DNA from: a virus
Strand: one strand, 5' to 3'
DNA length: 21,368 nt
Virus record (IMG/VR): IMGVR_UViG_3300036826_000337
Coordinates: 1-21,368 of that record
The notes beneath the pieces are model-generated. The model did not search any database, was not told the origin of the DNA, and saw only the letters and a list, made by a program, of their open reading frames with translations. Numbering within the stretch: the first letter of the stretch is position 1; every line of letters starts with the position of its first letter. The position numbers and the translations under genes were made by a program. Below, one piece after another: positions 2,784 to 14,428 of the stretch.

Positions 2784-3001
2784 AGCGGCATCCGTTCCTG
2801 CAGCGCGGCCGGCTCCAGCTCCTGAAACTTCTGCGCAATCAGCAGCACCAGTTCCCGTTCACGCCGCGTCAGCTTCCACGGTTCGCCCTGCAGCACCAGC
2901 CGCAGCACGCCACCGCCCGCGCAGCGATAGCGGCAGAGCTGATGCATGCGGAAACCCCAGAAGCCGGCCGGCACGAGTGCCCAGCAGTCGCGCCGCCTCA
3001 T
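2780..3001 (-). CDS. Small hypothetical protein behind the primase
   Basis: 73 residues from ATG 3001, coupled to the primase stop by an ATGA overlap. The N-terminal half has aromatic and cysteine residues (CWALVPAGFWGFRMHQLCRY) and a strand-like part (GGGVLRLVLQGEPWKL). The C-terminal half is an amphipathic helix (TRRERELVLLIAQKFQELEP). No family is recognised. Given its position, an accessory role in replication is possible, but nothing in the sequence shows it. Confidence 0.55.
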   Translation of the reverse strand: MRRRDCWALVPAGFWGFRMHQLCRYRCAGGGVLRLVLQGEPWKLTRRERELVLLIAQKFQELEPAALQERMPL

Positions 3002-5184
3002 TGCACGAAACCCCGTTCCTTCAGCGCCTCGAGCGCTGCTGGATTGATCCAGACCGGCCGGCCGTCGTCATCTTTGCCCGCGTGAAAGCCGGCCTTCGTC
3101 AGCAAATAGATCGCACGCCGCTGCATTTCGCGCGTCTGCAGGTGCAGCGGCACGCCGCAGACTTCGAAAAATTTCGCGATCGACAATTCCGGATTCTGGC
3201 GCGAATAGTAGACCAGTTTTTCCGACCATGGATCCGTCACCAGCCGCGCCTGCTGTTCCCGCTCGAACAGTTTCGCCGTTTCCATCTTCGGCCGCCAGCC
3301 GGCGCCGCGCCGGTAAAGCGCCAGCGCTTCCGCCCAAATCTGCCAGGCATCCCGCGCGAGCGCCGCCACATCCACCGCGCCCACCGCCACCGGCCAGACC
3401 AGGCGCTGGCCTTCCCCGTAGAGATAGCTCTGTTCCTCCTCCACCGTGCCCAGGAACACGCACTGCCGCGGATAGTTCATCTTGCCCCAGCGGCTGTGCG
3501 CCGGCCGGTACTGGTCATGCGTGCGCGTCAGGAATTGCCGCGCATGTTCGTATTGCAATTGCCGGCCGACGTCGGCCAGCGCCACCAGCCACACGCCGCG
3601 GAGCTGTTCGGCCGATGCCTGCCACTCGAAGCGCGACGGAAGCTGCGCGAGCAGATAGGATGCATCGCCGGCCAGCGCTTGGAAGGCCTCGAGCATTTCG
3701 GCAGGACGGCCGCCCTCGAACACGAGAATGCTTTCCGCTGCACAGCCTGGCTGGAAGAGACGCGCCACCGCGCCCACAAACCAGGCCACCGCGCATTCAT
3801 CCCAATAGAGCGCCTGGTCTTCCGCGTAGCGATGTTCGGCCCGCGGCTGCGCCTGGAAGTACTGCAGGAAAAAATTCTCCTCGAGCCGCTTCACCCCGTC
3901 CCAGCGTTCGGCCGCGATGCGTTCCCGCAACGGATGCATGGCCTGCGATCGCGCCACCAGCTCCACCGCGGCCCGCACCACGCCTTCCGAGAGTGTCGGC
4001 GTCAACTGCCGCTGCAGCCAAGCGAGAATCGAGAAGAAACGCTGCTCCTCCAATTCGCCGGCTGCGATCGCGGCCGGCAGGCCTTCGCCCAGCAGGATTT
4101 TTTCGCGGAACGCATCGTACTGGAGTTTACCGGCCCAGTCCGGATGTTCGCGCAGCGCATGCGCCGCGTTCGCCACATTCGGATGCGGCCGGCGATTGCG
4201 GTTGAGCGTCAGCCCGTTGCGCCAGGCCTCCGCTTCCCCTTCGAGCTGCTCGAAAGAAGGTCGATACAAGCGTTCCAGCCCCAGGATTGCCGGCGATTCC
4301 ATGCGACCCCAATACGGGCAAGCGGCGCAGGTTTCCTCCGCAAAGTCGCTGCGCACGCGTGCGCAGGTCACCGGCCCCGCATCCTCTAACGCATGCCGGA
4401 TTTTCTTTTCGGTTTCGCTGCGCCGGTAGCCGCGGTACGGCCGGCTGAAAGCATGCGCATCCTCGTGGCCGTTCTCGGTGCGCGCGACAATCGAGAGCAT
4501 GGCGTACCATTCCGACTCCGGCAGGCTGGCCGCGTCATCGCGTGTATGCCGCAGCCAGGCGCAGCCGGCGAGAATCGGAGGCAACTTCGGCGCCGCCAGC
4601 GGCTTCTTCCGATCGCCGGCCGGTTCGCGTGCCGAACTTTTCTGCGCCGCTTCCAGCCACGCCTGCGGCAGCTCCGCCATCGCCTGAAACCAGCCGCTTA
4701 GACCGTCCCAGGTATACTCGATGCCGCTATCCGGATGCACCGAGGGAGGCGCCAGCACATAGCAACCAGCGCCGCGCAGATCCACATGCGGCGCGAGGCG
4801 CCCGCGTGCCGCGAAATCCTCCGGCACGCGAAAGTAGAGATGCGTGCCGCCCGTTCCCGTCGAAACCGTGCGCGTCTCCGGCAGCTTGCCGTACTTCTGC
4901 TCGAGGGAAAAGAATTCTTCGCGGCCCGGTTTGCCATCGCGCACATCAATATCGACAATCAGCAGGCCGGCGCCGGCCGCCAGGCCGATATTCGCCTGCG
5001 GCTGCCGCTGCCACCAGACGCGAATCTGAAACTCATCCGTTGTCGCATCGAGTACCCCGCGTCCACCTTCCCGCTCCGGTATCAATGGCAGCTTCGAGCG
5101 CACACCCAGCGGCAGTACGCGAAACCCCGCTTTCGCATAGGCCAGCGCCGCCCGTAACAGTCGATCTGTCGCCGCGTCTGCCAT
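2998..5184 (-). CDS. Primase-polymerase fused to degenerate VapE-like helicase domain
   Basis: 728 residues, a phage replication protein. Residues about 10-180 form a bifunctional primase/polymerase (Prim-Pol) domain with the active-site pattern intact: D-I-D at 78-80, T-G-G-T-H with His115, and V-D-L-R-G at 134-138, followed by the usual YVLAPPSVH. Residues 200-300 resemble a primase C-terminal segment, with Cys274, Cys286 and Cys289 possibly binding metal. Residues about 330-650 match the virulence-associated E (VapE) superfamily 3-like helicase fold: HPLRERIAAERWDGVKRLEE, W-F-V-G-A-V-A-R-L-F-Q-P-G, FLTRTHDQYRPAHSRW, YPRQCVFLGT and VWPV. The P-loop is replaced by EGGRPAEMLE (490-499) and the Walker B segment reads WLVALADVG (532-540), so ATP hydrolysis is doubtful. 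Residues 655-728 look like a winged helix. It starts 3 bases after the upstream stop. Confidence 0.88.
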   Translation of the reverse strand: MADAATDRLLRAALAYAKAGFRVLPLGVRSKLPLIPEREGGRGVLDATTDEFQIRVWWQRQPQANIGLAAGAGLLIVDIDVRDGKPGREEFFSLEQKYGKLPETRTVSTGTGGTHLYFRVPEDFAARGRLAPHVDLRGAGCYVLAPPSVHPDSGIEYTWDGLSGWFQAMAELPQAWLEAAQKSSAREPAGDRKKPLAAPKLPPILAGCAWLRHTRDDAASLPESEWYAMLSIVARTENGHEDAHAFSRPYRGYRRSETEKKIRHALEDAGPVTCARVRSDFAEETCAACPYWGRMESPAILGLERLYRPSFEQLEGEAEAWRNGLTLNRNRRPHPNVANAAHALREHPDWAGKLQYDAFREKILLGEGLPAAIAAGELEEQRFFSILAWLQRQLTPTLSEGVVRAAVELVARSQAMHPLRERIAAERWDGVKRLEENFFLQYFQAQPRAEHRYAEDQALYWDECAVAWFVGAVARLFQPGCAAESILVFEGGRPAEMLEAFQALAGDASYLLAQLPSRFEWQASAEQLRGVWLVALADVGRQLQYEHARQFLTRTHDQYRPAHSRWGKMNYPRQCVFLGTVEEEQSYLYGEGQRLVWPVAVGAVDVAALARDAWQIWAEALALYRRGAGWRPKMETAKLFEREQQARLVTDPWSEKLVYYSRQNPELSIAKFFEVCGVPLHLQTREMQRRAIYLLTKAGFHAGKDDDGRPVWINPAALEALKERGFVQ

Positions 5185-7112: not shown

Positions 7113-7664
7113 TTAACTCACCCGGTAACTCAGCGAAATCATGCCTTGATTGACGCCGGCCTTGAACACGGCGCCGCCGGGCATCGCAAAGACCAGCCGG
7201 TTATTCACCTTGTCCAGCCAGCAGGCCGTCGCAGTCCATCCCGCGCCAGGCGAAACCACGGCAGCCGTTGCTGCCATAGACGCAGCCAGATTCACCGCAG
7301 GAACCGGCAGCGTGAGATAGAGATAGGTATCAAGCGTTCCGCCCAGCGTCAGCGTGAAATTCAACTGCAGTAAGCATTCCGCGCCGCGCCGCAGATACTG
7401 CGCCAGATAGACCGTCAGCGCCGAAACCGTCATCGCGCCGGATGCCGTCACCACCGGCGTGTACGTCTGCCAGTCGTTCCCGAATTTCACCCGGTCTGGC
7501 GCCGCGAACGTCACCGCGCCGGCAACCGTCAGACTGCCCAGGTTCGTGAGTGCATAACCGCCTGCATTCACATCGCCGCCCCACGTCTGCAGGTTTTCGA
7601 GCAATGCGTTGTATTGATTCGCCGTCGAAGCTTCGCCTGCCTGTACCGGAGCCGGCCAGCTCAT
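7113..7664 (-). CDS. Short fibre-like tail protein (paralogue B)
   Basis: 183 residues from ATG 7664, which overlaps the upstream stop as ATGA and has GGAGG in front. A longer reading from 7703 lies inside the neighbour. The first 39 residues (MSWPAPVQAGEASTANQYNA, then LLENLQTWGGDVNAGGYAL) match the start of the next upstream gene at 25 of 39 positions. After this anchor come beta strands with Thr, Val and Gly (TYTPVVTASGAMTVSALTVY, then LTLPVPAVNLAASMAATAAV), as in small host-binding tips. It probably forms a tail spike or fibre tip together with the paralogue. The receptor is unknown. Confidence 0.7.
   Translation of the reverse strand: MSWPAPVQAGEASTANQYNALLENLQTWGGDVNAGGYALTNLGSLTVAGAVTFAAPDRVKFGNDWQTYTPVVTASGAMTVSALTVYLAQYLRRGAECLLQLNFTLTLGGTLDTYLYLTLPVPAVNLAASMAATAAVVSPGAGWTATACWLDKVNNRLVFAMPGGAVFKAGVNQGMISLSYRVS
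7548..7664 (-). repeat. Fibre anchor module, copy B
   Basis: 117 bases coding the first 39 residues of the shorter fibre-like protein. They align without gaps to 8900-9016. 25 of 39 residues are identical, with the core QTWGGDV and QYNAL conserved. DNA identity is clearly lower than protein identity, which indicates an old duplication. Confidence 0.75.
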
Positions 7665-9016
7665 ACGTTCGCCACCTCCGACCAGGGAACAACCGCTTCC
7701 CAAATTTCCGTATCCGATTTCTTGCCGAACACGTGCAGGCCGTCTGCCTCGGCCAGGAAGTTCACCGCGCCGACGGGTATCGTCTGCTCCGGCTGAACAT
7801 CACCATCCACCGGATCAGTCGTTTCCGTTTTCGCCGACCGCATATGCTGGCGAATCTCATCGAGCGATGCGCCGGACCCATGCGGAACCCAGGCCAGGCC
7901 GGAAACATTACCGGATGCGTAAATATTGCCCTGCGTGCGCATGCTGCCGGAGGCCGGATAAAACGTCGGATCGACTGCGAATCGGCCGTCATTGACGATC
8001 TGAAAATAATTCGCAGCGGTGCCGCTTTTGTTCAGCAGGTAATCGAAATTGGATGTGATGCGCCCGACGGCTAGTAGTGTGCCCTGCACAGTTAAACCCG
8101 ACCCGGTGCCGCCGGAAAAATCAATGGTTGGCGCCCCGCCGCTCAGTCCCAAACGCCACCAACTGGACGGGTTAATCGGAGTGTTGCAAACCGCAAACCA
8201 CTGCGCATTGAACTGCGTGGCAGTCGGAGTCTGACCGAGGCGCAGATAGGCATCGTTACTACTCAACGTGGCTGGCGCCAACAGTACTGCGCCGGCGCTG
8301 AAATTCGCAACCCCACCGCTGAAATTCACGGGCTGCGCGCTATCGAAAGCGATGGGACCATTCGCGCGCACGGAAACCGGCGCGCCCACCGGCGCATTCG
8401 GCGAAGCAACCGCCAATTGTAGGTAGGAACCAGCCGAACTTTGCGCCGTCAGCGTTAGCGCTTGCAAATCTCCCGCAGCCGTCAGGCTGCCGCTCGCCGC
8501 AATCGCGCGCACGCGCAAATCGCGGTCCACACCATTTGAATCGGAGATTTGCAGCACGCCGGCCGCGTTGCGCTGTATTCCGACGTCAATCGGATCCGAT
8601 GGTAAGTTATTCCCGCTCGCGAAGCCAATCACGCCAACGGCCGGCAGCTTGATCGGACTCCGCGCATTCGCCCCCGTCGTCGCAAACGATACAATGCCCT
8701 GGCCGGCCGTCACATCGTAGAGCGTCAGCCAGGCGCCGGCCGGCGTATCGGTAAAGGCGAAGCGATGCCCGCCTGTAGCCGTGTTCTCGATCACGAGCGA
8801 CGTACCGCCTGCATTCGCCGACGTCACAATCAACGGCGTACCCTGGCTGGCGCCGCCATTCGCGGTAAAAAGCTGCGTCTCTAGATTTGCGGCATTCTTC
8901 AGCGCATAATTGCCCGCATCCACATCGCCGCCCCATGTCTGCAAAGCAGCCACCAGTGCGTTATACTGCGCAGCCGTCGCCGTCTGGCCCGGCACGACTG
9001 TATTAGGCCAGGCCAT
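7661..9016 (-). CDS. Fibre-like tail protein (paralogue A)
   Basis: 451 residues from ATG 9016. The N-terminal 39 residues carry the anchor QYNALVAALQTWGGDVDAGN and the YALKNAANLE step common in phage fibres. The long central part is Gly-, Ala- and Asn-rich with short strands (GASQGTPLIVTSANAGGTSL, GASLDEIRQHMRSA), as in trimeric beta-structured shafts. The C-terminus has a polar head with VNFLAEADGLHVFGKKSD. It is likely a receptor-binding fibre. There is no sign of a hydrolase motif or of a variable-repeat cassette. It overlaps its upstream neighbour by 14 bases and is coupled to paralogue B by ATGA. Confidence 0.72.
   Translation of the reverse strand: MAWPNTVVPGQTATAAQYNALVAALQTWGGDVDAGNYALKNAANLETQLFTANGGASQGTPLIVTSANAGGTSLVIENTATGGHRFAFTDTPAGAWLTLYDVTAGQGIVSFATTGANARSPIKLPAVGVIGFASGNNLPSDPIDVGIQRNAAGVLQISDSNGVDRDLRVRAIAASGSLTAAGDLQALTLTAQSSAGSYLQLAVASPNAPVGAPVSVRANGPIAFDSAQPVNFSGGVANFSAGAVLLAPATLSSNDAYLRLGQTPTATQFNAQWFAVCNTPINPSSWWRLGLSGGAPTIDFSGGTGSGLTVQGTLLAVGRITSNFDYLLNKSGTAANYFQIVNDGRFAVDPTFYPASGSMRTQGNIYASGNVSGLAWVPHGSGASLDEIRQHMRSAKTETTDPVDGDVQPEQTIPVGAVNFLAEADGLHVFGKKSDTEIWEAVVPWSEVANV
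8900..9016 (-). repeat. Fibre anchor module, copy A
   Basis: 117 bases coding the first 39 residues of the longer fibre-like protein, homologous without gaps to 7548-7664. Both copies begin at the start codon, so the duplicated unit equals the attachment module of the fibre. Confidence 0.75.
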
Positions 9017-9239: not shown

Positions 9240-10129
9240 TGCGCGTCCTTACTCGTCGGGTTTGCTTCATCCGCCCAGAGAAAGTCATCCCAAACCGTAC
9301 CCTTCGGACACCAGGCCCATTTCGCGTTCTGGATGTTCGTGCCATCCTCCCAGTTACTCTGGTCCCACTTCTTGCACGTCAGCGGCTGAAAGGGCACCAG
9401 ACTCCCGGCGTAAGAGTCTGCATCGAAGGGAGGCAACTGCACGCCGGCTGGGTACGTACGGCCGCACAGCCAGACCGAATCGAGCCGGATTGTCGCCAGC
9501 AGCACATGCAGCGGCACGTCGGCTGCATGCGAAACGCGGAACCCGAATTCGACCAGATTCGAAGGCATTGCCGGCTGCGCCTGCGTCGGCGCCAGCCGCA
9601 GGCCGGCCGCAACCCAGCTATTCGCTTCCGCAATTGCCGTGCGCATCGGCGCTGCCCATTCGACGCCGGCCGCATCCTTCGCATACGGCAGCACGTATAG
9701 CGCCGGCTTCGTCGCCTGTGATGCATAAGCCACCTGCAGCCAGCCCCAGAACACATAGCCGTTGCCGTTCGTCGGCCAGGCGAACGAATGCACGAATTCG
9801 AGCGTCGCCGCTTGCGTCGCCGGCGTCCAATCGGTTTCGCTGCAGCCGATGCCGTAGGCCGATTGCGTCGCATCGAGGCGCAGCGCCGAACAGTCGCCGC
9901 GTGCCTGCCAGTCGCGCAAATCGCCCGGCTCCTCAAATCCCCAGGTCGCCACTTCCGCCCGGCAGTCGCGGCCGGTAATCTTCACTTTCGACAGATTCGT
10001 AATCCACGGCCCGCGGCCGGCCGAATGAATCGAGAAATTCGCGGCCGAAGAAAATTGCGCATCGAGCGTAATCGCGGCATCGTACCAGGATTCGAGACGT
10101 GCGCCGTTGATGAAGATGTCGAACTTCAT
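9230..10129 (-). CDS. Tail tip protein, Dit-like position
   Basis: 299 residues, encoded directly after the tape measure (ATGA overlap), the usual place of the distal tail protein in siphophages. The N-terminal segment (MKFDIFINGARLESWYDAAI) resembles a hub-domain start with a strand-turn-strand. The middle (residues about 60-210) is a beta-sandwich-like, aromatic and Trp-rich part (FAWPTNGNGYVFWGWLQVAY) reminiscent of carbohydrate-binding modules. The C-terminus is Trp-rich as well (WDQSNWEDGTNIQNAKWAW). The role as tail tip structural protein follows from position. Sugar binding is inferred from the aromatic content only. Confidence 0.62.
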   Translation of the reverse strand: MKFDIFINGARLESWYDAAITLDAQFSSAANFSIHSAGRGPWITNLSKVKITGRDCRAEVATWGFEEPGDLRDWQARGDCSALRLDATQSAYGIGCSETDWTPATQAATLEFVHSFAWPTNGNGYVFWGWLQVAYASQATKPALYVLPYAKDAAGVEWAAPMRTAIAEANSWVAAGLRLAPTQAQPAMPSNLVEFGFRVSHAADVPLHVLLATIRLDSVWLCGRTYPAGVQLPPFDADSYAGSLVPFQPLTCKKWDQSNWEDGTNIQNAKWAWCPKGTVWDDFLWADEANPTSKDAQWA

Positions 10130-12996
10130 CGCACAACTCCCGCGACCTGTAACGCGTGCACGATATCCTGCGACACCTGCTCCGTCGTCGGCCCGACTTG
10201 CACGTTCAATACAACGTTCGGCCGCAGTGCGCCGGAACTCAGCGCAGTCCGAATATCGTTCAGCACCGAAACAACCGGCGTAAAATCAACCGAAAAACTC
10301 GAAACATCTACCGGCACGCCGGCCGCCGGCGCGAACTGAATTCGGCTGATTGCATCGCTCAACAACTGCACATTGAAAGCGCCGGCGAGCGCGGCGAGCT
10401 GCGCCGAAATCGTCGCGAAGCCAGTACGCATGTTATTAAAGCCGGCCGATAACTGATTCCAGAGTTCACTGCCCCAGTGCGTGATATCGCCGCGCAGCCC
10501 TACCACCTGATTACGCGTGTACGCCTGAAATTCCGTATAGAGATCATGCACGGCCATGTAGGTGAGGAACACACCCTGCTGGATGTTCTCCTCGATTTTC
10601 TGCGTACCGCGTGTCTGGAAAATGCCAATCACTCCGGTTATCGCCGACACCGCACCCGTCACCATCGAAAACGCGCTGCCCAGGCCGCCCAACGCCGCGC
10701 CCGCCGCGGAGCCGCCTGCCGGCGTGCCCGTTTTCGCGGCCGTCTGCGCAGCCGATCCGCCCAGGCCGCCGAACAGATCGCCGACACCTTTAAAGGCTTT
10801 TGTCACTTCGCCCAGCGCCGCCGTCAGCCCGTTGCCGCCGATCAGCGACTGGATGAACTTGCCCACCGCCGCCACGCCCTGCTGCACGAAAATCTGCGTG
10901 AACATCTTGCCGATATCCGTCAGCAGCGATTTCGTGATTTCACCGAAACTCTTGTCGCCGCTCCAGAGCGCATCCGTAATATCCGATGCCGTCTGCCGTA
11001 CCAGCCGCGTGATATTGCGCTGCGCATCCTTCCACATGGATTCCTGTTTGCCCAGCTCTTTACCGGTATTCTCCGTCTGGTTTTTCAGAGTCTGACCCTG
11101 TTCGTCGGCCGATTTGCGCACCTGCGCGCCCAGCTCCGCCAGCGCTGCCCGTTGCTCTGCCGAAAGATTGCCCCAGTCTTTCGCGATCGTCTGCGTAATC
11201 GTGTCCCAGGCCGCTTGATTGATGCGCTTGATTTCTTCCGTACTCGTGCCGGCCAGCGATACCTGCTGCTTCCAGCCTTCGCGCACGTTGTAAATCATGT
11301 CGTTGATGGACTTGTCACTCGCGTACTTGATAGACTCCATCGCGGTTCTGATACGCTCCGCGCCGGCCATCGCATCCCGCGCCATCGCTTCGGTTGCTTG
11401 ATCCGCTTCCTTATAAACCGGAGTCATGCCGCTGATTTGCTCATTCAGCTTTTTCGCCAGTTCGATCTGTGCTTCCCAGGCGCGAATCGAATCCATCGAA
11501 AATTTACGATGCGCTTCCGCTACTGTCTCGACGGCAGTACCCACGCCCTGCAACGCATCGCCGGTTTTGTGTAGCTGGTCAATTAAATTTTTCTGATTGA
11601 CAACCCAGTTCACTACTCCGTGGATTGCAGATTCGTTGCGCTTCGTCAAATCGGAAATGCGATCCCCGATTCCTTTCAAGGGACTGTTTACGTCCGTATT
11701 GATGGAATGGCCGAGTTCCTGAAAATTCTTCTTCAGACCGTCGCGCAGCGTGCCCAGATCTTCGCCGATCACATCGAAGGCGAATTTGATCCACTCCGGC
11801 ATTTTTAATGCGAGTTTGTTCCACAACCCGCCAATTGCGGCCAGCTCCCGCTGCGTATTCTGCAGCATGCTTTCGTTATATTTGTTAGCCTGTTCGGCCA
11901 GCTTCTCGAAAATGGCCTGTATGACCGCGGCCGTATAGGCCACGTAGTGAATCACGTTGTCAAGCGAAGTCTTCCAGGCCTGCGCCCACAGATCGCTTGC
12001 TTTCGCATTCGTATCGAGCGATGTGTTGACGAATCCCAGCGCCTTTGCAATGCCTTCGAACGCACCACCTACAAATTGCCGGATCTGACTAAAGCCGGTA
12101 CTGAGCGTATCGAACAATTTCTGCGCCAGACCCTGAATGACCCCGCTTTTGATAAACCAATCACCGAAAGCGGACACCCACTTCAAGGCCTCCGTCACCC
12201 AGCCCGAAACTTTCTGAATGGCCGGCCCGAATAGCGTCGTAAACGCCTGCGCTAGCGCTTCGACACCTTTACCGGCCGCCTCCGAGAATGCCGTTTTGAC
12301 GCCTCCAAGCGTGGCATTCAAACCCTTTAATGCCTCCGAACTGGAGAGCGCTTTGATGCCGGTATCGAGCAGCCAGCCGCCGACTTTTTCGGCAATCTGC
12401 AAGGCAGTCATGCCGGTTGCTGCACCGGCGGCGATCGTCGCCACACTACCTAAACTCGGAACAAGTTTCGATGCTGCACCGCCCAGCGAGGAAAGGAAAC
12501 TACCAGCCGTACTCGACTGCTTGCCGGTATTCTCTAGCGCCGTACCCGTCGTCTGCGCCGCCTGCGCAACTGCAGCCGTTTTCGCGGCTGCCTCCGTCGC
12601 GGCCGTTGTCGAAGCCTTAAATGCATCCGTTACCTTCGTCGTCGCCGTCGCTGCATTCGTTTCCGCCGCGGCCGTGGCTGCCGCCGATTCGGCAACCTTC
12701 TTCGTTGACTCCGCGGCTGATGCAGCCACCGTCGCCGTCTGCGCAAATTGCGCGTTGGACGCATTGAGCGCATTGCCTAACGCGCTGATCGATTGCGTTG
12801 TTTGGACATTCGCCAGGCCGGAGGTTTTGACCGATACCGAAAGCGCATCGAAGGATTTTGAGGCATTCGCGGCCGACGTCTGAATCGAGGAAACGGCCGC
12901 ATCCGTCGTTTTCTGCGCTTCCGCAATAGAACGGTTATAGGAATCCGTCACCGCGTTCAGAACAATATTGACGGTACGGTTCAAACCTTCAGCCAC
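10126..12996 (-). CDS. Tape measure protein
   Basis: 956 residues from GTG 12996; the start overlaps the chaperone stop by 8 bases. It determines tail length and is ejected with DNA. The N-terminal 60 residues are amphipathic helices. Residues about 85-150 are a long Ala/Thr-rich helical stretch. Residues about 178-215 are hydrophobic (SLGSVATIAAGAATGMTALQ, then IAEKVGGWLL). Later parts contain helices typical of tape measures (GAFEGIAKALG, EAQIELAKKLNEQ) and a second hydrophobic zone (GSAFSMVTGAVSAITGVIGI) before a helical C-terminus. It has no lytic domain that I recognise. By the known rule of about 1.5 angstrom per residue, the tail would be near 140 nm. Confidence 0.93.
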   Translation of the reverse strand: MAEGLNRTVNIVLNAVTDSYNRSIAEAQKTTDAAVSSIQTSAANASKSFDALSVSVKTSGLANVQTTQSISALGNALNASNAQFAQTATVAASAAESTKKVAESAAATAAAETNAATATTKVTDAFKASTTAATEAAAKTAAVAQAAQTTGTALENTGKQSSTAGSFLSSLGGAASKLVPSLGSVATIAAGAATGMTALQIAEKVGGWLLDTGIKALSSSEALKGLNATLGGVKTAFSEAAGKGVEALAQAFTTLFGPAIQKVSGWVTEALKWVSAFGDWFIKSGVIQGLAQKLFDTLSTGFSQIRQFVGGAFEGIAKALGFVNTSLDTNAKASDLWAQAWKTSLDNVIHYVAYTAAVIQAIFEKLAEQANKYNESMLQNTQRELAAIGGLWNKLALKMPEWIKFAFDVIGEDLGTLRDGLKKNFQELGHSINTDVNSPLKGIGDRISDLTKRNESAIHGVVNWVVNQKNLIDQLHKTGDALQGVGTAVETVAEAHRKFSMDSIRAWEAQIELAKKLNEQISGMTPVYKEADQATEAMARDAMAGAERIRTAMESIKYASDKSINDMIYNVREGWKQQVSLAGTSTEEIKRINQAAWDTITQTIAKDWGNLSAEQRAALAELGAQVRKSADEQGQTLKNQTENTGKELGKQESMWKDAQRNITRLVRQTASDITDALWSGDKSFGEITKSLLTDIGKMFTQIFVQQGVAAVGKFIQSLIGGNGLTAALGEVTKAFKGVGDLFGGLGGSAAQTAAKTGTPAGGSAAGAALGGLGSAFSMVTGAVSAITGVIGIFQTRGTQKIEENIQQGVFLTYMAVHDLYTEFQAYTRNQVVGLRGDITHWGSELWNQLSAGFNNMRTGFATISAQLAALAGAFNVQLLSDAISRIQFAPAAGVPVDVSSFSVDFTPVVSVLNDIRTALSSGALRPNVVLNVQVGPTTEQVSQDIVHALQVAGVVR

Positions 12997-13656
12997 GGCG
13001 TTTTACTCCCGGCAGGCTCAGAAAATACGCCTCCAATTGCCGGCCGCTAGGCATCTGCGGCGCCCGCGGCCGCGGCTGCTCTGCCGCTTCGTCTGGCTTC
13101 GTCAGCAGGAAAGATTCAACGGATACTTCCGGCGCATCCTTCGCGCGATTCGCCTGATAGGTCAGATACAGTAACTGCGCGATCATAAGTTCCCAATGCC
13201 GGTTTTGATCCCTCCACTGCTCGATGAGTGCATCCAGCTCCGGCCGCGTCAGCTCCCAGAATTCCCACTCCTCGAGCCGGAGGCGGATACGTGCGAAAGC
13301 CCGGAGTCGCTCCCACTCGTGAACGACGGAACCGCCAGGCCGTTGACGGCTGGCGCCGGCTGCGCTTCCGCTGCCGGCTCCGCGGAAGGGTTTGCCGTAC
13401 CCATCGCTTCCGCCACACAGGCGTTGTAATACGACAAATTCTGCATTTCGATTAACGGCCGCAGGCCTTCGAGCGTCAAGTCGGCGTGTTCATGCCGCAG
13501 TCCCAGAAATAACGCCTTCGCCACCGAGTCTAAATCGCGCTCCGGAAGCTGCTGCAGCTCAAGCACATCCGCCAGCGTGTAATACAGATACCGCGGCACT
13601 TCGTCGCCCAGAACGATTTCGACCCGCTGCAGTACTTTTCGCTTGCGTTCCGGCAT
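12989..13656 (-). CDS. Tail assembly chaperone GT (-1 frameshift product)
   Basis: A fusion predicted to arise when ribosomes on the upstream chaperone gene slip back one base. The T part is open from 13489 to the stop at 12991-12989 but lacks a good start. It codes HEWERLRAFARIRLRLEEWE, then FWELTRPELDALIEQW, which matches the T half of lambda-like chaperones. Slipping at AAACCCT gives 90 residues of G plus 132 of T, 222 in all. Such fusions bind the tape measure and tube protein during tail assembly. A lone ATG at 13186 would give only 65 residues and would leave the conserved T part untranslated, so fusion is favoured. Confidence 0.75.
13249..13656 (-). CDS. Tail assembly chaperone G
   Basis: 135 residues from ATG 13656, chosen because it lies immediately after the upstream stop; ATG 13686 would add ten residues overlapping the tail tube gene. 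The first 86 residues (RVEIVLGDEVPRYLYYTLAD to about VAEAMG) are alpha/beta and match the size and pattern of lambda G-like chaperones. The last 49 residues are a Pro/Ala and then Ser/Gly-rich tail, which is the usual end of the unshifted product. It holds the frameshift site listed separately. Confidence 0.75.
   Translation of the reverse strand: MPERKRKVLQRVEIVLGDEVPRYLYYTLADVLELQQLPERDLDSVAKALFLGLRHEHADLTLEGLRPLIEMQNLSYYNACVAEAMGTANPSAEPAAEAQPAPAVNGLAVPSFTSGSDSGLSHVSASGSRSGNSGS
13387..13393 (-). other. Candidate -1 slippery heptamer AAACCCT
   Basis: Read on the minus strand, codons GCA AAC CCT contain A AAC CCT, a perfect X XXY YYZ heptamer in the zero frame. It lies inside the overlap in which both frames are open (13489 to 13252) and is the only perfect heptamer I found there. 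After a slip the next codons read TTC CGC GGA, a Gly/Ser-rich linker, before the conserved T region. Confidence 0.6.
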
Positions 13657-13657
13657 A

Positions 13658-14428
13658 TCAGGCCACCCGCTCGAGCGTCGTATCACCTGCCTGGCGCCGG
13701 CCCGTTCGCGTATCCGGCGCCCCTGTCCGTTCTACCGTCACATCGCCGAACTGGCGCAGCGTGCAATTCAATTTCATGGCGCCGGTTCCGGTAAAGGCCA
13801 GCGGCAGCGCGGTAACGAATGCCGCGAAGGTCACGACCAGCGTTTCGCCGGCTGTATATTCGGTTTCAATCTTGAATGGCCGCACTTCGCGCGTTTTCGA
13901 CAGATGAATCAGCCCGGTTAGTTCGTTATGCGTCGGATCATCCGGCCAGTAATTCACCACCAGCGCGATGTCGCCCGGCGTCGATAGACCCGGAATCTGC
14001 AGCACGACCTTCGAGGCATTCGCCAGGTTATTGACATCGAGCATGGAAATCGAAGGCGAAGGAATCGTCAGACTCTCGACATTCGATATTTCCTGCCAGG
14101 TCGGTTCCGAACTGGCATCGTTACAGGTTCCGAGGTACACATGCGAAGGAACCGGCACGAAGCCGGCCGGCGTCACCGTCGGATCGACGGCGATCTGTGA
14201 GCAGATACTCGCCTTCGTAACGGCAACAGCGGTTCCACTGACATGCGCCGCGGCCGTCGTCGCCTGCTGTCCGCGCGCAATCGTGAACGTATCGCCGGAA
14301 CCGCCCGTGACCTTCACTTTTTCCATTTCGATCGTGAGCGTGTCGCCGGTTGCTACGGCGTCGTGCCCGGTATTCAGTGTCAGAGATGTATCAGTCGCCG
14401 AAATGTCGGCCGCCAACGTCGTAGGCAT
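13658..14428 (-). CDS. Major tail tube protein with extra N-terminal domain
   Basis: 256 residues. The part from about residue 95 to the end has the tube-protein pattern: VESLTIPSPSISMLDVNNLA, LQIPGLSTPGDIALVVNYWP, PFKIETEYTAGETLVVTFAA, and a late conserved F-T-G-T-G-A-M-K-L-N-C-T. The first 70 residues (MPTTLAADISATDTSLTLNT; MEKVKVTGGSGDTFTIARGQ; TAAAHVSGTAV) match a beta module found in other phage tail and fibre proteins, with the R-G-Q and A-H-x-x-G motifs. It makes the hollow tube around the tape measure. It starts 20 bases after the upstream stop. Confidence 0.78.
   Translation of the reverse strand: MPTTLAADISATDTSLTLNTGHDAVATGDTLTIEMEKVKVTGGSGDTFTIARGQQATTAAAHVSGTAVAVTKASICSQIAVDPTVTPAGFVPVPSHVYLGTCNDASSEPTWQEISNVESLTIPSPSISMLDVNNLANASKVVLQIPGLSTPGDIALVVNYWPDDPTHNELTGLIHLSKTREVRPFKIETEYTAGETLVVTFAAFVTALPLAFTGTGAMKLNCTLRQFGDVTVERTGAPDTRTGRRQAGDTTLERVA

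Follow-up and report, generated by a model that had tools for sequence, protein, structure and literature searches.

The stretch of DNA analysed here, hereafter the window (IMG/VR record IMGVR_UViG_3300036826_000337, 21,368 bases), carries an HK97-type head-tail module on its minus strand, with the gene order terminase, portal, ClpP-like protease, capsid, connectors, major tail protein, G, T and tape measure. Metagenomes are the only source of the phage carrying this locus. The G open reading frame (13249-13656, minus strand; ATG at 13656, stop TGA at 13251-13249) encodes 135 residues and, from its match to phrog_2115 and its flanking genes, is assigned as the short product of a tail assembly chaperone pair. 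Its upstream neighbour encodes the major tail protein (13658-14428, minus strand; phrog_158 major tail protein, E = 3.5e-14), and the downstream neighbour of T encodes the tape measure protein (10126-12996, minus strand; phrog_1272 tape measure, E = 2.4e-12), with a GTG start that overlaps the T stop by 8 nt. G and the overlapping T frame are thereby placed between the major tail protein and tape measure genes, as in lambda-type G/GT loci.

The T frame lies in the -1 frame relative to G and is open from 13489 to 12992, between an upstream stop at 13492-13490 and its own stop at 12991-12989. A reading-frame check showed both frames to be open across 13252-13489 (minus strand), exactly the overlap given in the first-pass annotation. 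That annotation had also described T as lacking a plausible start, and indeed no ATG, GTG or TTG precedes the ATG at 13186 in the T frame of the window, this ATG itself falling inside the T domain, and none is conserved in relatives. When a perfect heptamer was defined as X_XXY_YYZ in the G-frame register, a recount again found A_AAC_CCT (13387-13393, minus strand) to be the sole one in the overlap. A slip at this heptamer would join 90 residues to the 132 residues of the T part (12989-13387 with its stop, minus strand), giving a predicted product of 222 residues with the junction N-P-F-R-G, and all of these previously proposed numbers were correct. The T part comprises a linker (13387-13322) followed by a helical T domain from 13321. 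In AlphaFold models, which were of low confidence (mean pLDDT 52 for G and 55 for T), the folded part of G ends at residue 86, just ahead of the predicted slip, and the T helices come after a disordered linker.

Because heptamers also arise by chance, their rate was determined in the 14 other genes of the window, where 11 in-frame perfect heptamers occur in 5,047 codons; this corresponds to 0.17 expected in the overlap. A single heptamer in one genome, taken alone, is only mildly unusual and no more than suggestive. As a control, the same code was applied to lambda, where it recovered the known GGGAAAG and no other heptamer from the overlap of G and T.

The family assignments of the two parts were examined separately. 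G matches phrog_2115 'tail protein' in 6/6 members (E = 4.9e-5 for the window and 1.3e-10 for the best relative), a PHROG tail family without a detailed function. T is matched by Phage_TAC_6 (PF09550) in 5/5 members, with clade B (see below) at 23.8 bits against a gathering score of 23.4 and the window below it at 13.3 bits; the score of T against TIGR02216 was far below the cut-off. Against Phage_tail_T (PF06223), T stayed below the gathering score (15.1 versus 25.9 bits), with sub-threshold matches in four members, and G of the window and of clade B gave no match to Phage_TAC_2 (PF06894), to which lambda G itself scores 206.9 bits. Judged by position and family, G and T are predicted to form a tail assembly chaperone pair outside lambda's own G and T families.

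Relatives were found on 11 IMG/VR contigs that represent seven distinct sequences, the window included, in two clades. Queries with G and T recovered the five contigs of clade A, one of which is identical to the window at this locus, and a major tail protein profile recovered the six further contigs of clade B, with two distinct sequences; further IMG/VR profile scans recovered all or some of these eleven and no others. Clade B shares 58-59% identity with the window in the major tail protein, 39% in G and 33% in T. Tape measure and major tail profile scans of contigs from GTDB genomes found no relatives, and among isolated phages tblastn queries with the G and T proteins of each clade gave no homologue, the match in Streptomyces phage Bmoc being weak (E = 1).

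In 7/7 sequences T lies in the -1 frame of G, with both frames open at the same place, and every indel within the overlap, in all relatives, is a multiple of three. The position of the G stop relative to the site differs between the clades (+141 versus +78). Chance occurrence of heptamers, at the rate given above, leaves some room for the explanation that the overlap is accidental or an assembly indel, in which case G and T would form a single frame, or the T frame would go untranslated. The same -1 offset, open overlap and triplet indels recur, however, in seven distinct sequences from several independent metagenome assemblies and two clades, and the T frame is conserved as protein with its variation at third positions. 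Assembly indel and chance overlap are thus effectively excluded, and we regard this explanation as scarcely credible.

The distribution of variable positions was used to follow the coding frame along the locus. Before the site, variable positions in clade A lie at G-frame third positions (27/54 and 20/33), while after the G stop they lie at T-frame third positions (37/86, versus 12/86 and 16/85 at the other two); the pattern in clade B agrees with that in clade A. Periodicity and alignment together therefore place the downstream open reading frame under protein-coding selection in the T frame. In the linker that leads from the heptamer to the T domain, variation is still G-periodic (9/19 at G third positions versus 3/20 at T third positions), so that periodicity alone cannot tell a switch of frame at the heptamer from one lying 3′ of it, and its exact position is left to the motif argument. 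A shift elsewhere in the linker, at a non-canonical site, would account for G-frame periodicity continuing there, but so would an abundant G product, if that product dominates selection over this interval; either way the linker would be read in both frames, with weaker constraint expected from the minor product. In all seven sequences both frames stay open between -58 and +78 nt relative to the AAC codon, and apart from the heptamer site this stretch contains no shared Z_ZZN or X_XXY_YYZ motif, while the retention of rare codons described below is located at the heptamer itself. We therefore consider a shift 3′ of the heptamer to be improbable. The relaxed motifs GAATTTG, GGCAAAC and CCCTTCC found in the window were also rejected, as none is common to both clades and nothing beyond C_CCT is shared.

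Within the T-frame linker, GAG and QRPG are kept between the clades. One segment, GTCAACGGCC-GGC (window 13348-13335, minus strand; L029 6199-6212), is conserved at the nucleotide level between clades whose residue identity is 33-39%; it translates as VNG-A when read in frame with G and as RQRPG when read in frame with T. Separately, relative L027 carries a 41-nt insertion (alignment A6, columns 946-986) between the T stop and the tape measure start that is a tandem duplicate of neighbouring sequence (GATGAGCCCGCG..TGAGCGAGGCGAAGACT); the duplicated stretch is present as a single copy in L028-L032.

The heptamer A_AAC_CCT is intact at the homologous place in 6/7 distinct sequences, including clade B, where it is again the only heptamer of the overlap. 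The first-pass annotation had suggested a comparative search for conserved AAACCCT in related phages, and the heptamer proved conserved with one exception: in L006 GCG replaces GCA, giving G_AAC_CCT, and the overlap is kept nonetheless. L006 is thus a partial instance of what that annotation had named as contrary evidence, relatives that retain the overlap but not the heptamer. This variant rests on one assembly. C_CCT is the only Z_ZZN tetramer common to 7/7 within the shared open stretch. While AAC makes up about 45% of Asn codons, CCT accounts for only 9% (window) and 6% (clade B) of Pro codons and GCA for 14% and 9% of Ala codons, respectively; with clade B codon usage, the probability of GCA-AAC-CCT given Ala-Asn-Pro is approximately 0.002. 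At other residues conserved between the clades, CCT was kept in 0/2 cases and GCA in 0/11. Retention of these rare codons across clades points to selection on the nucleotides beyond that on the peptide, and would be unlikely without it. The invariant core of the predicted slip site is AAC_CCT / C_CCT, with A at the X position strongly preferred but not absolute.

With G_AAC_CCT in L006, the one slip open to every sequence is that of the proline tRNA. This variant, and C_CCT as the sole motif in 7/7, are the basis for an alternative in which the -1 shift is mainly a single-tRNA slip of the proline tRNA on C_CCT, with AAC and the preceding A merely modulating it. Conversely, the minority codon GCA is kept in 6/7 sequences, which suggests that re-pairing in the P site matters, and G-U pairing could partly rescue the L006 variant, itself a single assembly. 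On balance we judge a predominantly single-tRNA slip unlikely, though it is the most serious of the competing explanations.

No frameshift would be needed if T were translated independently of G, either from a start codon belonging to T or by ribosomes re-initiating once G had terminated. Two observations speak for this: in the Streptomyces phages Chymera and Yara the annotation gives the T-like gene a start codon downstream of G (although these phages, too, have a -1 overlap that is open and holds a perfect heptamer), and an ATG or GTG follows a purine-rich stretch inside the T domain at 13186. The relatives nevertheless share no T-frame ATG, GTG or TTG; all that the clades offer is a CTG at -28 (clade A) and a CTG or GTG at -34 (clade B). 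A start at 13186 would lose the conserved TAC_6 part, in which strong conservation of T-frame residues extends upstream of that codon. Given the differing G stops, and with no start beside the G stop in clade B, stop-coupled re-initiation was rejected along with the internal start, and separate synthesis of T appears quite unlikely. The codon at 13186 (minus strand; ATG, or GTG in clade B) follows a GGGA/GGAG stretch in all relatives; it could yield a truncated T fragment, but is more probably part of a conserved peptide.

Downstream of the heptamer a putative stimulatory stem-loop was identified in the window (13355-13378, minus strand), in which GCCGGC (13378-13373) pairs with GCCGGC (13360-13355) beginning 8 nt past the heptamer. 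All members of clade A keep the GCCGGC/GCCGGC stem, around a loop that varies, and clade B has a 13-bp hairpin of -20 kcal/mol, 5 nt downstream of the heptamer. By the empirical rule of Sharma and colleagues, a structure starts 4-10 nt after the motif and has at least 7.6 kcal/mol (PMC4066793); both the clade A stem and the clade B hairpin satisfy this rule. Across the sequences, hairpins of approximately -12 to -22 kcal/mol begin 5-8 nt downstream, mostly as base composition predicts, and they differ between the clades. Relative to shuffled controls the window gave z of about -2.7 and the relatives about +0.7 to -1.7, so that in this GC-rich sequence the fold of the window is the only one clearly better than shuffled controls. 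RNA folding comparison gave no fold common to both clades, and Rfam contained nothing credible at the site. A stimulator at the AAACCCT site is thus no more than plausible.

The properties of AAACCCT were compared with published rules. All 64 X_XXZ_ZZN heptamers have been assayed in Escherichia coli, with 61 giving more than twice background in the presence of the IS3 pseudoknot (PMC4066793). A_AAC_CCU is absent from the three that did not shift (A_AAC_CCA, G_GGC_CCA and C_CCG_GGC) and therefore shifts in this assay (PMC4066793). The suggestion in the first-pass annotation that AAACCCT would broaden the list of slippery sites is consequently not upheld: the motif is uncommon, but already laboratory-tested and within known rules. 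Annotated phage heptamers include every base at every position according to the authors of PRFect (PMC10885494). Within the literature searched, AAACCCT and AAACCC turned up only in unrelated uses, and no paper described the heptamer as a natural phage site. In E. coli, C_CCU is among the six best tetramers, and CCN codons and mixed purine/pyrimidine X and Z generally give weaker shifting (PMC4066793). By these general rules AAACCCU would be inefficient, implying either a low shift frequency or a need for host-specific tRNAs.

Taken together, the conserved overlap, gene order, T-frame coding and heptamer, all retained in the distant clade, support a model in which A_AAC_CCT is the site of a programmed -1 frameshift, conserved and of the lambda G/GT type. 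This was the proposal of the first-pass annotation, and we consider it very probably the best explanation of the sequences. Most ribosomes would read G through to its own stop, producing the 135-residue protein. In a minority, the Asn-tRNA on AAC and the Pro-tRNA on CCT would slip back by one base onto AAA and CCC, and reading in the -1 frame would then yield a 222-residue GT consisting of the G domain, a Gly/Ala/Ser-rich linker and the helical T domain. We infer that the move from CCU to CCC would improve A-site pairing if the wobble position of the proline tRNA is G. By analogy with lambda, G and GT may coat the tape measure protein, with T recruiting the major tail protein. In lambda, gpG and gpGT are made at about 30:1 through a -1 shift, and the G/GT arrangement is widely conserved among long-tailed phages (PMC5009743). 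A more speculative extension is that A_AAC_CCT with invariant C_CCT represents a natural class of tail-chaperone sites, driven by re-pairing of the proline tRNA from CCU to CCC and efficient enough in the host to set the G:GT ratio, despite a motif that is poor by E. coli rules; we hold this only tentatively, as possible but doubtful.

As in lambda G/GT, two overlapping open reading frames lie between the genes for the major tail and tape measure proteins, the second of them (T) is read at -1 to the first, the overlap holds one in-frame heptamer, and the T stop overlaps the tape measure start by 8 nt. The locus differs from lambda in the position of the heptamer, since G_GGA_AAG lies close to the G stop in lambda and A_AAC_CCT about 45 codons before it here, and in its families, PF06894 being unmatched by G and PF06223 matched by T below threshold only. 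A likeness to gene transfer agents is seen in the clade B T domain, which scores above the gathering threshold of Phage_TAC_6 (PF09550, the rcc01693 family), but the window T (13.3 bits) is below it and TIGR02216 is far below its cut-off. The rcc01693-family protein of gene transfer agents has its own start. Chymera and Yara share a similar head-tail module, a major tail protein that is 26-27% identical over part of its length to that of clade B, and a T-like open reading frame in the -1 frame of G, the overlap being open and holding only one perfect heptamer. In contrast, their G and T belong to other families (phrog_344 plus PF06223) and are annotated as separate genes, and their heptamers are GGGTTTC and GGGAAAC (L035 3806 and L036 3736). 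The chaperone pairs of Chymera and Yara may therefore be unannotated G/GT frameshifts.

The conserved heptamer adds an apparently naturally used proline-codon slippery site to a gene pair in which frameshifting is near-universal. It is an aid to annotation, as T would otherwise go unrecognized as a gene, and a clean case for asking whether other hosts shift strongly at motifs on which E. coli shifts only weakly; the principle of G/GT frameshifting is unchanged.

Elsewhere in the window, a gene at 2998-5184 (minus strand) encodes a 728-residue primase-helicase protein in which Prim-Pol (PF09250) is fused to a VapE-like domain (PF05272). Behind the tail module, two adjacent genes without a PHROG match (7661-9016 and 7113-7703, both minus strand) encode products with a common N-terminal motif, WP..V..G..T..QYNAL...LQTWGGDV.AG.YAL.N, and these look like paralogous tail-tip or fibre proteins.
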